Origin: Lutimonas zeaxanthinifaciens
Lineage (GTDB): Bacteria > Bacteroidota > Bacteroidia > Flavobacteriales > Flavobacteriaceae
Direction: 5' to 3'
Assembly (NCBI RefSeq): GCF_030503675.1
Contig: NZ_CP129964.1
Span: 1,550,001 to 1,614,000 of the forward strand
DNA length: 64,000 bases
Shown here: positions 16,416 to 45,486 of the stretch, piece after piece
Position numbering within the stretch: the stretch's first letter is position 1
How the letters are laid out: the number at the start of each line of letters is the position of its first letter
Notes under the pieces: model-generated
What the model saw: only the letters and a program-made list of their open reading frames with translations
Database searches by the model: none
What the model was told of the DNA's origin: nothing
Translations under genes and position numbers: made by a program

Positions 16416-17714
16416 TCAATCTACCTTTAGCAAAAAATCCTTTAATTCAGCATAGGATGATATGAACCGCGCTTCTTTTTTCTTATCCATAACACTTTTT
16501 ATTTGAGGAGGATAGGCTATTTTTTTATTGATGACCGGCTCTACCACGTCCAGGAACTTAACTGGATGGGCAGTTTCAAGAAATATTCCCGTTGCACCGG
16601 GGTTCGATTCCAGGTATTTTTTAAGCCCAAGATAGCCCACAGCGCCATGCGGATCCATAATATATCCTGTTTCCTGATAAACCTTGAGCATGGCAGCCCT
16701 GGTTTCATCATCGGTAAAGGAATAGGAGGAAAGGTTCTCTTTGATCAGCTCAAAGTCATTTTTGTAAATTTCTCTGATGCGAATAAAGTTGCTTGGATCG
16801 CCAACATCCATGGCATTGGAAATCGTTGCTACAGAGCGTAGCGGGATATATTCTCCCTTTGCCATAAAATTCGGAACCACTCTGTTGGCATTGGTTGAGG
16901 CAATGAATTGTGAAACAGGTAGGCCAAGCTGTTGTGCCATAATACCGGCACAGATGTTGCCAAAATTTCCGCTGGGTGTTGAAAACACGAGTGGTTTCGA
17001 TCTGTCTTTTAGCTGTTTGTAGGCAAATGCAAAATAAAACATCTGAGGCAGCCATCTGGCGACATTTATCGAGTTGGCCGAGGTCAATTGAATTTCATCA
17101 GTTATCTCCTTGTCAAGAAAGGCCTCTTTAACCAGAGCCTGACAATCGTCAAATGTTCCGTCTACTTCAAGAGCTTTTATGTTCTGACCCAGGGTTGTGA
17201 GCTGTTTCTCCTGAACTTCACTAACTTTACCGCTGGGGTAAAGAATAACCACATTGACTCCCTTTACACCAAGAAAGCCACTTGCCACGGCTCCTCCGGT
17301 ATCACCAGAGGTGGCCACAAGCACCGTAACCTCGTTGGATTGCTCTTTATTAAAGTAAGAAAGACATCTTGCCATAAACCTGCCTCCAACATCCTTAAAG
17401 GCCATGGTGGGGCCGTGGAATAGTTCAAGGCTGAATATATTTTCTTCTACTTTTTCCAAGGGGAAATCGAAGCAAAGAGTATCCTCAATGATATTTTTCA
17501 GGTCAGCCTCCGGAATTTCTCCGTCTATAAACGGATTGATCATCTCAAAAGCAAGTTCATTAGGCGCGTATTGATCGATGTTTTTAAAAACCTCATTAAG
17601 TCTGGCAGGTATGATTTCAGGAAAATACAAGCCCTTGTCCGGGGCAATTCCTTTTATCACAGCTTCTTTAAATCCTACTTTTGGGGCCTTACCATGTAAA
17701 CTGAAAAATTGCAT
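16416..17714 (-). CDS. thrC: Threonine synthase
   Basis: 432 residues. PLP enzyme converting O-phosphohomoserine to threonine, the last step of the pathway. The PLP lysine is Lys-107 in MAFKDVGGRF, and the phosphate-binding segment ATSGDTGGAVASGF and the SANSINVARWLPQ region are typical. Its ATG overlaps the thrB stop by one base (TAATG), pointing to translational coupling. It is the last gene of thrA-thrB-thrC. Confidence 0.96.
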   Translation of the reverse strand: MQFFSLHGKAPKVGFKEAVIKGIAPDKGLYFPEIIPARLNEVFKNIDQYAPNELAFEMINPFIDGEIPEADLKNIIEDTLCFDFPLEKVEENIFSLELFHGPTMAFKDVGGRFMARCLSYFNKEQSNEVTVLVATSGDTGGAVASGFLGVKGVNVVILYPSGKVSEVQEKQLTTLGQNIKALEVDGTFDDCQALVKEAFLDKEITDEIQLTSANSINVARWLPQMFYFAFAYKQLKDRSKPLVFSTPSGNFGNICAGIMAQQLGLPVSQFIASTNANRVVPNFMAKGEYIPLRSVATISNAMDVGDPSNFIRIREIYKNDFELIKENLSSYSFTDDETRAAMLKVYQETGYIMDPHGAVGYLGLKKYLESNPGATGIFLETAHPVKFLDVVEPVINKKIAYPPQIKSVMDKKKEARFISSYAELKDFLLKVD

Positions 17715-18649
17715 TATTGTCTCTTTACTATTTTTACTCCCTCAACGTTTATTTTTGATGTATAGATGTGATAGGGAATTTTGGTTTTATTATAAACTTT
17801 ATCAACTACAATACTCACTTTATGAGCTGTTTGTTCATCTTTACTAAAAGTGAATATTGAAGGTCCTGATCCTGAGATACCACCTCCAAGCGCTCCGGCT
17901 TCAACGGCATTTTTAATGACATTATCAAATTCCGGGATCAACTTTGAACGATGTGGTTCAACGATATAATCGTTTAAGGAATCCGCAAATAAATGCGCAT
18001 CATTGGTATGGAGAGCATGAATCAGCGCTCCAACATTTGCCCATTGCTTTATGGCACTTTTTAACTTTACCGTTTGAGGTAAAATATCCCTTGAAACCGA
18101 GGTTTTGATTTCAATTTGGGGATGGATGATAGTCGCGTATAAACCTTCAATTGAAGGAAGTTCTATCACTTTTATCGGATCGTCAGATTTAACCAGGGTA
18201 AATCCCCCAAGAAGGGCGGGAGCCACATTGTCTGCAATGGGGGCCCCACAGGCCGCTCTCTCTCCTTCAGCTGCGTAGGGTATAAGCTGATGGCTTGAAA
18301 ACGGATTTCCCAATAATTCATTCGCCGCAAATACGGCCCCGGCCGCACTTGCGGCACTACTTCCCACGCCACTACCTGGCTTGATGTTTTTATAAATATC
18401 AATTTCAATACCAAAACCGGGAGCCTCTTTTAAATCTTTCAGCATTTCAATGACCGCAACACTCGCCACATTCTTTTCGGCTTCCATCGGTAATTTCTCA
18501 CCAATGATTTTTCCTATTCTGACTCCTGGCTCATCCGTTTTGCGAAGTACCATTTTATCCCCTATAGAATCCAGGCAACATCCCAGAACATCAAAACCGC
18601 AGGAAACATTGGCGATGGTAGCCGGAGAAAATATTTCAATTTCTTTCAT
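17714..18649 (-). CDS. thrB: Homoserine kinase
   Basis: 311 residues, GHMP kinase family. It phosphorylates homoserine with ATP to give the substrate of ThrC. The ATP-binding motif PGSGVGSSAAS lies at 91-101, and the C-terminal GALGGGISGSGPSIFTF is the third GHMP motif. Located 8 bases after thrA and overlapping thrC by one base. Confidence 0.96.
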   Translation of the reverse strand: MKEIEIFSPATIANVSCGFDVLGCCLDSIGDKMVLRKTDEPGVRIGKIIGEKLPMEAEKNVASVAVIEMLKDLKEAPGFGIEIDIYKNIKPGSGVGSSAASAAGAVFAANELLGNPFSSHQLIPYAAEGERAACGAPIADNVAPALLGGFTLVKSDDPIKVIELPSIEGLYATIIHPQIEIKTSVSRDILPQTVKLKSAIKQWANVGALIHALHTNDAHLFADSLNDYIVEPHRSKLIPEFDNVIKNAVEAGALGGGISGSGPSIFTFSKDEQTAHKVSIVVDKVYNKTKIPYHIYTSKINVEGVKIVKRQ

Positions 18650-18657
18650 GCCTGATT

Positions 18658-21102
18658 TTATTTATTTCCAGTTCTGATGATATCACCAAAAATTCCTGAA
18701 GCAGTCACATCTGCACCTGCTCCGGCTCCTTTAATGATCAGCGGTTGATCCTTGTATCTATTGGTGTAGAATAAAACAATATTATCCTTTCCGTCCAAAT
18801 TGTAAAATGGATGGTCCTTTGGAATATGCTGAAGCCCAACAGAGGCTTTTCCATCTTTATAACTAGCCACGTACTTTAATCGGCAGTTTTCGTTTTCAGC
18901 AGCTTGCCTTAGCTTATTGAAATGATCCGATTCAGACACAAGGGTCTCCAGAAATTCAGGTACAGTAACAGCATCTAGTGAAGCTTGCGGAAGAAAAGAT
19001 TCATTCTTGATGTCTTCCAATTCACTGTGCAATCCGCTCTCCCTCATTAAAATAAGAATCTTTCTCATCACATCCACTCCGCTCAGGTCTATTCTTGGAT
19101 CGGGTTCGGTATACCCTTCTATTCCTGCCTGATCCACAACTTCCGCAAAAGATTTTTCTGCATTGAAATGATTAAATACAAAATTCAGACTTCCTGACAA
19201 GACTGCCTGTATTTCCGTGATTTCATCCCCCGAAGCGATCAGGTTATTCAGGGTGTCAATAATCGGTAACCCTGCACCCACATTGGTTTCGAACAAGAAA
19301 GGGGCATTGTATTTTCTCGATAAGTATTTCAGGTGTTGATAATTGTCAAAAGCCGAAGAGCAGGCAATTTTGTTGCAGGCTACAACAGCGATGCTATCGG
19401 AAAGACAGCTTGCGTATAATTCGGGTACCTGGTCATTTGCCGTATTATCAACAAAGACACTGTTTCGTAAATTCAGGCCTTTCATTTTTCCGATAAATTC
19501 TTCAAGATCTGCTTTTTCACCTTTTTGATCCAATTGATCCGTCCAGTTATTAAGGTCTATACCTTCAATCTCAAATAGCATTTTTCTCGAATTACTGATT
19601 GCAACAACACGTAATTGTAAATGCTGTTTCTCTAATAGGTAGTCCGACTGCAATTTTATTTGCTCTAAGAGCTTGCCGCCTACATTTCCGATTCCAACTA
19701 CAAATAGATTGATCTGTTTGATCTGATCTTCAAAAAAGGCTGCATGCAAAGTGTTTAATGCTTTTTTAACATCATTCTCACTGATCACAGCCGAAATATT
19801 TTTTTCGGTAGACCCTTGTGCAATAGCGCGAATATTTACATTGTTAGCTCCCAGTTCAGAGAACATTCTGCCACTGATTCCCTGATGTGATTTCATATGA
19901 TCTCCCACAAGGGCAATGATTGCGAGTTCGGTTTCAATGATCAGCGGGTTGACCTTATGCTGAAATATTTCAAATTCAAATTCTTTATCAACTGATTTTT
20001 TTGCCAGAATGCTTTCACCTCTGTCTATAGCGATACAAATGGAATGCTCACTAGAGGCCTGAGTAATGAATTTCACATTGATTCCATTTTTTGCCAGGGC
20101 TCCGAATAAACGCTCTGAAATTCCGGGCACACCAACCATACCATTTCCTTCAAGGGTTAACAGGGCGATGTCTTCAATATGGCTAATTCCTTTTACGGTG
20201 GATCCGGATACCAGGGATTTTTTAGTAATCAAAGTACCCTTATCCTTTGCAGAAAGTGTGTTCTTGATCAAAATTGGTATTCTTTTATCAAGAACGGGCT
20301 GAACGGTGGGAGGGTAGAGTACTTTGGCACCAAAATGAGAAAGCTCCATGGCTTCCTGATACGAAATTTCCTCTATAGGATATGCTTGCCTCACCAATTT
20401 TGGATTTGCCGTATACATCCCGCTCACATCCGTCCAAATTTCCAGAATATTCGCGTCTGCAGCATTGGCAATGATAGCTGCGGTATAATCTGATCCGCCC
20501 CTTCCAAGCGTTGTTGTTTCATTTAATTCATTTGAGGAGATAAATCCCGGAAATAAAAAAACATCTACTGAATCATTACTCAATTCATTTTTCAGGCTTT
20601 TTTGAGTAAGCTCAAAATCCACTTCAGCATTTAAATACTGATCATCCGTTTTAATAACGTCGCGACTATCAATTAAAGCGGCGTTTACATTATTCTGAAG
20701 CATGGCCTGATGGATAATGAAAGAAGACATTATTTCTCCCAGACTCACAATTCTAGCCGAGGTTTTATCCGAAAGATCACTCAGCAGGGATATACTATGC
20801 AGAATTTCTTTGAGCTGATTTAACTTTTTGGCAACTTCAGCTTTGCAATTTGTTTGATTGTAATGTGGGAAAAGGTTTTCTATGGCCTCAAAATGTCTTT
20901 TTTCAATCTGATCCACGATATCCTCATACATTAAATCATTCTTAAGGGCAAGGTCAGAAGCCTCAATAAGCAGGTTGGTAACCCCACCAAGCGCTGAAAC
21001 CACTATGGCAGTTTGTTCTTTCTTTTCTTTAACTATCTGGATTACTTTTTTTATGTTCTCAGCGGAGCCTACTGAAGTTCCACCGAATTTCGCAACTATC
21101 AT
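18658..21102 (-). CDS. thrA: Bifunctional aspartate kinase / homoserine dehydrogenase
   Basis: 814 residues. The N-terminal aspartokinase domain starts with KFGGTSVGS (5-13) and carries GRGGSDYTA; tandem ACT domains follow (about 310-460), where threonine feedback would act; the homoserine dehydrogenase domain begins with the nucleotide site GIGNVGG (about 468-474) and contains FLFETNVGAGLPIIDTL. It catalyses the first and third steps of the threonine branch. It is preceded by a 107-base untranslated stretch and a threonine-rich leader ORF at 21210-21284. Length and fusion order match the E. coli ThrA type. Confidence 0.97.
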   Translation of the reverse strand: MIVAKFGGTSVGSAENIKKVIQIVKEKKEQTAIVVSALGGVTNLLIEASDLALKNDLMYEDIVDQIEKRHFEAIENLFPHYNQTNCKAEVAKKLNQLKEILHSISLLSDLSDKTSARIVSLGEIMSSFIIHQAMLQNNVNAALIDSRDVIKTDDQYLNAEVDFELTQKSLKNELSNDSVDVFLFPGFISSNELNETTTLGRGGSDYTAAIIANAADANILEIWTDVSGMYTANPKLVRQAYPIEEISYQEAMELSHFGAKVLYPPTVQPVLDKRIPILIKNTLSAKDKGTLITKKSLVSGSTVKGISHIEDIALLTLEGNGMVGVPGISERLFGALAKNGINVKFITQASSEHSICIAIDRGESILAKKSVDKEFEFEIFQHKVNPLIIETELAIIALVGDHMKSHQGISGRMFSELGANNVNIRAIAQGSTEKNISAVISENDVKKALNTLHAAFFEDQIKQINLFVVGIGNVGGKLLEQIKLQSDYLLEKQHLQLRVVAISNSRKMLFEIEGIDLNNWTDQLDQKGEKADLEEFIGKMKGLNLRNSVFVDNTANDQVPELYASCLSDSIAVVACNKIACSSAFDNYQHLKYLSRKYNAPFLFETNVGAGLPIIDTLNNLIASGDEITEIQAVLSGSLNFVFNHFNAEKSFAEVVDQAGIEGYTEPDPRIDLSGVDVMRKILILMRESGLHSELEDIKNESFLPQASLDAVTVPEFLETLVSESDHFNKLRQAAENENCRLKYVASYKDGKASVGLQHIPKDHPFYNLDGKDNIVLFYTNRYKDQPLIIKGAGAGADVTASGIFGDIIRTGNK

Positions 21103-21172
21103 CGTTTTGAATTTTTATTCTTGAAATGTACTTTTTTGTTGTTAAGAATCTTGATTTACTCTTGTAAAAAGT

Positions 21173-21221
21173 TTCTTATAGGGACGTAGTAATATATGCA
21201 AAACAACCCCTAAAGGGTGTT
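21173..21221 (-). promoter_or_regulatory. Candidate alternative RNA pairings in the thr leader
   Basis: The last Thr-Leu codons supply ACCC (21218-21215), which can pair with GGG (21210-21208) just after the stop; adding AACA with TGTT gives a 7-bp stem with a 2-base bulge. The same segment, TAGGGG (21212-21207), can instead pair with TCCCTA further on (21184-21179), six pairs including one G-U, with a 22-base loop. The two pairings exclude each other, as expected of an attenuator switch. Neither ends cleanly in a T-run; a five-T stretch follows only later (about 21169-21165). Confidence 0.35.
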
Positions 21222-21284
21222 AGTGAACGTAGCTGTTGTTGTATTACAGCGAAATGAAGAAATTAAGTTGACTATTTTTTGCAT
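21210..21284 (-). CDS. thrL: thr operon leader peptide (24 codons, six Thr)
   Basis: Read leftwards from ATG at 21284, the ORF starts MQKIVNLISSF and ends NTTTATFTNTL before TAG at 21212-21210. Six of the last eleven codons are Thr, using ACA three times and ACG, ACT and ACC once each, and there are two Ile codons (ATA, ATT). It lies upstream of thrA, same strand, with a TATATTTG box just before it. This is the layout of a ribosome-mediated attenuator sensing threonyl-tRNA, as for E. coli thrL; the peptide itself shows no relation to the E. coli one beyond composition. The terminator half is not clear (see the separate entry). The call is inference from composition and position, but chance seems unlikely. 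Confidence 0.82.
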   Translation of the reverse strand: MQKIVNLISSFRCNTTTATFTNTL

Positions 21285-21291
21285 GATGAGG

Positions 21292-21299
21292 CAAATATA
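21292..21299 (-). promoter_or_regulatory. -7 promoter box of the thr operon
   Basis: Minus-strand 21299-21292 reads TATATTTG, a full consensus match, seven bases before the leader ATG at 21284. The -33 region is A/T-rich without a clear TTG. The rest of the 450-base gap between thrA and the HdeD-like gene (about 21300-21553) is A+T-rich with no ORF or stable hairpin that I can support. Confidence 0.6.
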
Positions 21300-21553
21300 T
21301 ATTTCTTTTTTTAATTGATAAAGAATATTACATTTTTTTTGAGAAAAGAAGGTGTTCAAAAAAATAGATTGAATTATTCGCATGATTTAAGGGATTGGTT
21401 TAGTAATCCCGTTTTGTGAATAAAAGGAAAACAAACGACTTTATAATCGAGGTTATAGTAGCTGTTCCATTTGAAATCACAAAAAAATGACTCATAAAGA
21501 GTTAATTTTGAAAGGATTGAATTATATTTAAGCAAACCTTTAAAATATTTATT

Positions 21554-45368: not shown

Positions 45369-45425
45369 ATGAAAAGAATAGCTTTACATCACCATCATAT
45401 TCATACTTGCACTCAGGCGAGATGA
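45369..45425 (+). CDS. hisL: his operon leader peptide (18 codons, five His)
   Basis: The ORF starts ATG at 45369, reads MKRIALHHHHIHTCTQAR and stops with TGA at 45423-45425. Four consecutive His codons (45387-45398) plus one more (45402-45404) lie upstream of hisG on the same strand. The terminator at 45456-45486 and the competing pairing described with it complete a classical attenuator in which the ribosome senses charged His-tRNA. The coding run and its position leave little doubt about function, although expression is not tested. Confidence 0.92.
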   Translation: MKRIALHHHHIHTCTQAR

Positions 45426-45486
45426 TAATGTTGTGATTAAAAGTCAAAATATTAGAACCCGTTTGAGCATTCAGGCGGGTTTTTTT
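45412..45486 (+). promoter_or_regulatory. his attenuator: antiterminator versus terminator
   Basis: Terminator: 45456-45466 pairs with 45471-45481 (11 bp including two G-U pairs, loop GCAT) and runs into seven T residues (45480-45486). Antiterminator: CTCAGGCG (45412-45419), the end of the leader ORF, pairs over 8 bases with CGTTTGAG (45460-45467), which is the terminator's own left arm. The leader copies TCAGGCG of the terminator's right arm exactly (45413-45419 and 45471-45477). A ribosome stalled on the His run leaves 45412-45419 free, so the antiterminator forms; one reaching the stop covers it, and the terminator forms. Confidence 0.88.

Follow-up and report, generated by a model that had tools for sequence, protein, structure and literature searches.

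A threonine codon-rich leader ORF before thrABC in Flavobacteriaceae, a probable amino acid sensor without a strong intrinsic terminator

The thrABC operon of Lutimonas zeaxanthinifaciens is preceded by a short ORF that ends in a run of threonine codons and that probably acts, as in many flavobacteria, as a threonine gauge operating without the usual stop signal. We analyzed this leader in a window of 64,000 nucleotides (the whole stretch of DNA under study) and in the regions upstream of thrA in relatives. As judged from sequence comparison, the sensing logic of the thr leader is ordinary, and its unusual trait is the missing terminator, which the his and ilv leaders have. In the explanation that we rate best, and that we consider fairly probable, the translated ORF would sense threonine, and probably isoleucine, before thrABC and would act through a non-canonical output, most likely Rho. 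The comparisons strongly favor the Thr/Ile gauge and weakly favor early termination by Rho as its output.

The features of the locus are collected in Table 1. With the codons ATG CAA AAA ATA GTC AAC TTA ATT TCT TCA TTT CGC TGT AAT ACA ACA ACA GCT ACG TTC ACT AAC ACC CTT TAG, the window ORF encodes a peptide with the C-terminal end NTTTATFTNTL and with six Thr and two Ile residues, and it uses all four Thr codons (ACA three times, ACG, ACT and ACC) as well as the Ile codons ATA and ATT. The first-pass annotation had described the ORF in this way and had placed it just upstream of thrA, on the same strand and behind a box. Both statements hold on the sequence, with 107 nt between the leader stop and the thrA ATG (21102, minus strand) and with the box TATATTTG ending 7 nt 5' of the leader ATG. 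Its assignment of the downstream genes was borne out by NCBIfam models, which give the order thrA-thrB-thrC; by ThrA, the closest named relative is Lutimonas saemankumensis (91% identical). The leader frame stays open farther upstream and would yield 57 amino acids from an ATG at 21383; we prefer the 24-codon start because it follows the promoter-like box. Bacteroidota make little use of Shine-Dalgarno sequences and have a sigma box of their own. With the box placed at -12 to -5, as a passage on Flavobacterium psychrophilum gives it (PMC9723704), transcription is predicted to start about 3 nt before the window leader ATG, on a near-leaderless transcript. On the plus strand, a terminator-like hairpin GGGATTGGTTTAGTAATCCC followed by GTTTTGTGAA occupies positions 21391-21410 of the intergenic region.

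Table 1. Features of the thr and his leader regions in the window (position 1 is the first nucleotide of the window)
Feature	Position	Strand	Basis or remark
thr leader ORF MQKIVNLISSFRCNTTTATFTNTL, stop TAG included	21210..21284	minus	24 codons + TAG
TATATTTG, match to Bacteroidota -7 box TAnnTTTG	21292..21299	minus	sequence
Hairpin P (GCTGT..ACAGC) within the ORF, in overlap with the codons ACA ACA ACA	21232..21250	minus	folds; swap test
Hairpin A (AACACCC-TTTA-GGGGTTGTT)	21202..21221	minus	folds
Element B GCATATATTACTACGTCCC, conserved, unpaired in local folds	21181..21199	minus	sequence and folds
Hairpin C, AT-rich, without U-tract (0 T of 8)	21143..21178	minus	swap test, alignment
thrA, bifunctional aspartate kinase/homoserine dehydrogenase I	18658..21102	minus	NCBIfam NF006959, 1036.1 bits, cut-off 726
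thrB, homoserine kinase	17714..18649	minus	TIGR00191, 228.6 bits, cut-off 168.25
thrC, threonine synthase	16416..17714	minus	TIGR00260, 298.7 bits, cut-off 167.1
his promoter-like box TACATTTG	45344	plus	17 nt before his leader
his leader MKRIALHHHHIHTCTQAR before hisG	45369-45425	plus	classical his attenuator
his terminator GAACCCGTTTGAGCATTCAGGCGGGTTTTTTT	45455-45486	plus	

The regions upstream of thrA were taken from 80 loci of a genome collection and from genomes of the family and the phylum. Matches were found in 294 of 299 family genomes and 109 of 148 phylum genomes; the regions used are the best matches plus 80 chosen places, hand-picked from the match lists, and do not form a random sample. 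L005 (incomplete) and L082-L084 (other aspartokinases) were excluded in assembling 218 upstream regions; the set used comprises 216 regions, 213 of them distinct. Among these 213, the best short ORF contained at least six Thr in its last 18 codons, six being the window leader's own value, in 63 cases in sense direction, one in antisense direction and 0.6 after shuffling (mean of five rounds); at least four Thr were reached in 116, nine and 13.0 cases, respectively. A chance origin of the Thr-rich ORF is excluded. Conservation supports the claim of the first-pass annotation that a Thr/Ile leader precedes thrABC in Bacteroidota, with otherwise different peptides.

Besides Flavobacteriaceae, some related families have the leader, and the distant families sampled have it rarely or not at all. 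In the phylum sample (69 regions, at least four Thr), it was found in 10 of 12 regions from the window's family (f1), so that two Flavobacteriaceae miss it, and in 1/1, 5/5, 3/4 and 4/4 regions of families f2, f3, f4 and f8. Counts were lower in f21 (5/13) and f14 (1/6), and no such leader was seen in f5 (0/2), f9 (0/1), f26 (0/4) and 12 other families (0/17). It is also missing at nine of the ten loci titled Winogradskyella.

For a closer comparison, we used the 115 of 213 regions with an ACCC..GGG core; dropping L219 and L030 as unrelated left 113, and removal of near-duplicates left 105, among which L050 and L165 were kept despite doubtful leaders. In the last 12 codons of these 105 leaders, Thr accounts for 41.2% (519/1260) and Ile for 19.9%, against 8.1% and 9.7% when the same bases are shuffled. 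Since the core that defines this set fixes the last Thr codon as ACC, we also computed the Thr share without that codon, which is 35.8% (414/1155); the Thr codons other than this final ACC are of all four types. In the other two frames, of 1155 codons each, Thr makes up 1.4% and 0.3%, and 47 and 13 codons are stops. Among the relatives compared, the codon run is conserved while the remaining peptide drifts between clades. The leader thus shows what marks the broad class of ribosome-mediated leader-peptide regulators, a codon-rich ORF upstream on the same strand and a conserved run within a drifting peptide.

A promoter-like TAnnTTTG box precedes the leader start by 4-44 nt in 85 of the 105 leaders (4-11 nt in 31, 13-25 nt in 53 and 44 nt in one); these distances are biased, as ATG was taken over GTG or TTG, which were included, and as the chosen start was the one whose spacing from the box came closest to 12 nt. 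In 11 leaders the box lies exactly 4 nt before the start, where the ORF would open at the first base of the transcript. A second promoter-like TAnnTTTG was noticed by eye downstream of element B in part of one clade only. The leader peptide peTrpL is leaderless. Known cases of leaderless leader peptides exist elsewhere (PMC7298713), and a passage of PMC6847099 gives leaders of more than 10 nt for 87% of predicted transcripts in F. johnsoniae.

Local folds of the 105 leaders place hairpin P in the first half of the ORF, followed by the little-structured Thr run, hairpin A at the ORF end, unpaired element B, hairpin C and thrA. The order ORF, hairpin A over the ORF end, B, usually C and then thrA recurs, on this folding, in relatives. 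In the window, the 5' arm of predicted hairpin A contains the last Thr codon, ACC, and the loop, with its 3' edge, contains the stop TAG; across the core set, hairpin A takes the form ACCC-loop-GGG(G)T. In family f8, its arms are exchanged (ACGGG..CCCGT) in three of four leaders, the fourth having GGG..CCC, and the stop codon falls within the loop in all four; the exchanged arms together with the stop in the loop lend support to hairpin A as such. Element B follows roughly the group pattern YATATNNTNC. Hairpin C was not found in 10 of the 105 leaders. Relatives also have a hairpin upstream of the Thr cluster, often within an outer helix, O, of which the window gives no clear sign. L017 and L089 carry an extra stretch between hairpin C and thrA, with a common GCATGTGAC motif and without Rfam match.

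In a swap test, which sets pairing within species against pairing of windows swapped between species (601 window pairs, 105 sequences), helix C reached a z of -6.0, outer helix O -4.6 and P -3.8. An alignment of a 19-member clade contains both-sided changes in four of seven pairs of C, three of seven of P, one of six of O and none of six of A. In this clade, none of 500 shuffles reaches the whole structure in the number of paired cells, in the number of cells changed on both sides or in the covariation score. The excess is weak for the number of pairs with both-sided change, which 41 of 500 shuffles reach, and is absent for further pair types, where 371 of 500 do so; slid versions of the structure score 4-10, against 8 for the structure itself. 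RNAalifold recovered hairpin A alone from the same clade, without covariation, and the fold z-scores of pieces of the window leader are modest (-0.6 to -2.3). A pairing of the leader start (ATGCAAAA) with TTTTGCAT, 3' of hairpin A, was seen in the window fold and by eye in L001 and L002, and was discarded as it was not seen in L003 or L007.

We also searched for hairpin A with element B elsewhere, using a sequence model of 59 leaders (reference set of 102, excluding L050, L165 and L113; L017 omitted). Among 99 genomes of the class, it gave five matches at E < 1e-4, each of which precedes an aspartokinase gene; three of the five come from genomes already in the comparison. Of the weaker matches, that at 2.7e-4 does not precede an aspartokinase gene, that at 9e-4 does, and six that were inspected (L282-L287) do not; 39 of the 99 genomes contain some match at E up to 0.1. 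Under strict filters, the element was not convincingly located at any second site in the 99 genomes. A degenerate DNA pattern combining A and B matched in 8 of 60 genomes, and four of these eight matches fall at thrA places of the match lists.

In the same flavobacteria, the his and ilv attenuators resemble the thr leader in carrying a run of codons for the amino acid of the pathway in a short ORF, and the his leader of the window also has a TAnnTTTG box in front; they differ in that a strong terminator with a U-tract mostly stands before the gene. Comparable his leaders with terminators occur in the other flavobacteria examined. We compared 11 of the 13 f1 genomes, leaving aside G131, which lacks the thr leader, and G019. 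A hairpin with U-tract precedes hisG in 11/11 (-14.3 to -16.8 kcal/mol) and ilvD in 10/11 (-9.1 to -22.0 kcal/mol; the exception is G109, with -3.9), whereas the segment from hairpin A to thrA contains no terminator at or below -8 kcal/mol in any of these genomes (best -6.3; G109 attains -8.3 if the whole 200 nt are scanned). In larger sets, this threshold is reached by 15 of 19 his, 14 of 20 ilv and 5 of 105 thr leaders, and by none of 105 thr leaders after mononucleotide shuffling; the his and ilv figures cover 19 of 20 his places, one lacking an ATG, and 20 of 23 ilv places, three extra ilvD-family copies being excluded. A strong intrinsic terminator between leader and thrA, the mark of a classical attenuator, is therefore absent in 100 of the 105 leaders, including that of the window, where the best hairpin has -3.6 kcal/mol. 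A mutually exclusive antiterminator helix was not found by the swap and shuffle tests. Upstream of ilvD in the window's own genome, an Ile/Val-rich leader is followed by a strong terminator (-11.4).

In family f3, the thr leaders end in classical terminators of -16.0 to -21.6 in 5/5 cases. Peptides of the same kind thus do serve ordinary attenuators nearby, and one family couples a similar sensing peptide to a terminator, which the window's family does not do. The f3 leaders (L190, L191, L193, L194 and L196) are Thr-rich, lie upstream of thrA and represent the ordinary attenuator form of the same regulation. A leader-plus-terminator form was also seen upstream of thrA at L200, from the more distant family f14, where leader MISTIKNMTTTTTMHLPFRLPGK is followed by the hairpin GACCCCGC-AGTAA-GCGGGGTT and TTTTATTGTA.

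Based on these results, we suggest that scarcity of charged tRNA-Thr or tRNA-Ile would stall the ribosome at the last ORF codons, where it would cover the 5' arm of hairpin A and keep A open. This step is suggested by the codon run, by the position of A over the last Thr and stop codons and by the location before thrABC. When charged tRNA is plentiful, the ribosome would reach the stop codon in or beside hairpin A and depart, and A would close. Less certain is what follows: closed A may cause the transcript to be lost before thrA without an intrinsic terminator, most likely via Rho acting on the untranslated, G-poor and YC-rich segment of B and C. The genome contains a Rho gene. From hairpin A to the thrA ATG, 98 sequences (those of the 105 leaders admitted to distance-limited tests) have 17.2% C, 7.1% G and 0.097 YC per nt, compared with 15.4% C, 18.0% G and 0.072 YC per nt in 97 control upstream regions. 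Low G and raised YC would suit a stretch for Rho loading. The Rho reading is one of composition, and his leaders also have C over G (+0.044); the corresponding segment of the window is less extreme (16 C and 9 G of 100). We saw no alternative helix that would link hairpin A with B or C, and a pairing of the A arm with B as switch or antiterminator was rejected, being weaker than with shuffled B.

The missing terminator would also fit translational attenuation, in which a complete transcript is made and translation of the leader changes how the thrA start is folded or how accessible it is, in the manner of antibiotic-induced erm leaders. The 3' arm of A and element B are indeed complementary to thrA codons 6-9, ranking 11-12 and 16 among 975 offsets when 73 full genes are scanned and beating shuffles with z of -7.5 and -6.0, but this shuffle test favors G-runs. 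The swap test for this complementarity gave a z of -2.8, which can be chance since 589 window pairs were tested. As a further hint of covariation, the A arm and the third position of a Gly codon vary together in 63 of 105 leaders, where 52.3 are expected (p 0.0025 by shuffling, relatedness ignored). Blocking the leader of the window raises the modelled accessibility at the start of thrA from 0.38 to 0.41-0.47. Over 98 sequences, however, blocking the leader leaves the predicted accessibility unchanged (mean change 0.001-0.005); pairing of the freed A arm with thrA would repress in starvation, which is the wrong sense; and the CCCGT arm in three of the four f8 leaders is unable to pair with the thrA codons. 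We consider this mechanism unlikely and the complementarity a weak lead, and the same three observations are the reason for our weak preference for Rho as output.

It is distinctly unlikely, in our estimate, that A or C is a cryptic intrinsic terminator that ends transcription in AT-rich bacteria without a good U-tract, which would amount to ordinary attenuation. A pattern scan scored window hairpin A with its tail TGTTTTGC as terminator-like, the five thr leaders at or below -8 kcal/mol have no counterpart among the shuffled ones, 13 of 105 C hairpins have at least five T in the next eight bases, and f8 leader L201 has a short hairpin with U-tract (-5.0). Yet the scanned window hairpin is weak, the tail after hairpin C averages 2.4 T of 8 (2.7 omitting the 10 hairpin-less sequences), and neither his nor ilv in the same genomes is weak in this way, ilv of G109 excepted. 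Quite improbable is an arrangement without early termination, in which the transcript is shielded from decay by a stalled ribosome, or in which B or the hairpins serve as a protein-binding site. The conservation of B and its lack of pairing in folds are what a binding site would show, but the thr leaders searched matched no Rfam family. It is highly improbable that the ORF codes for a functional small protein or that the open frame arose by chance. One flavobacterial clade shares an MNHLxQN start, but this start doubles as the 5' strand of helix O, the peptides differ between clades outside the Thr/Ile run, the window ORF has no NCBIfam match, and the sense, antisense and shuffled counts above rule out chance.

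We tentatively propose, with a little less than even confidence, a terminator-less thr attenuator in Flavobacteriaceae and relatives. In it, the ribosome would gate a hairpin that holds the last regulatory and stop codons, and the output would run via a conserved C/U-rich element; as f3 uses a terminator, the output device may have been exchanged and the sensing logic kept.

The enterobacterial thr operon carries Thr and Ile codons in a short leader ORF before thrABC. The first-pass annotation had recognized this leader-peptide logic in the window, and its view is supported for the Thr/Ile ORF before thrABC, but not for the enterobacterial logic in full, given the missing strong terminator; the flavobacterial leader further differs in its peptide and in the hairpin over its stop codon. 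The enterobacterial thrL leader is the Rfam family Thr_leader (RF00506), which gave no match at the gathering score, nor up to E = 10, around the window leader. For the window and 17 loci, Rfam revealed no known RNA family at the thr leader, and one tRNA elsewhere in L130. Rho-dependent leader-peptide switches, such as the topAI uORF and tnaC of E. coli and mgtL of Salmonella, are alike in that the fate of transcription depends, with no intrinsic terminator involved, on a ribosome stalled on a short ORF; unlike the thr leader, they do not belong to thr biosynthesis operons, and a role of Rho at the thr leader is a candidate one. A comparative attenuation survey by Lopatovskaya et al. (2010) may list Bacteroidetes cases and could anticipate the peptide. 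The topAI uORF is the subject of PMC12121999. The Bacteroid-trp RNA (RF01692), listed in a passage of PMC2864571, is a candidate cis-regulatory leader in Bacteroidetes as well, but refers to trp by name and has no match at the thr leaders.

The first-pass annotation was about right in calling such a leader not commonly described for the phylum. A search of titles and abstract openings returned no thr leader in Bacteroidota and no description of this element. One sentence of a flavobacterial transcriptome study speaks of "strong clues" for leader-peptide attenuation before amino-acid operons (PMC9723704); passages of this study report 64 structured 5' regions, with pheA and hisG among the 5' elements conserved in the family, and "threonine" and "thrA" are absent from its main text, as distinct from its supplements. 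Leader-peptide-like sORFs in Bacteroides appear in a passage of PMC7366714.

With this leader, control of thr by a leader peptide would reach into part of a phylum that is large and understudied. The thr leader also offers a clean contrast within one genome, with strong terminators at the his and ilv leaders and none at the thr leader. It may also help to interpret unexplained structured 5' regions of the flavobacterial transcriptome (PMC9723704). If Rho, or a protein that reads element B, is the output, the leader would be a convenient natural system for the coupling of translation and early transcription in Bacteroidota.
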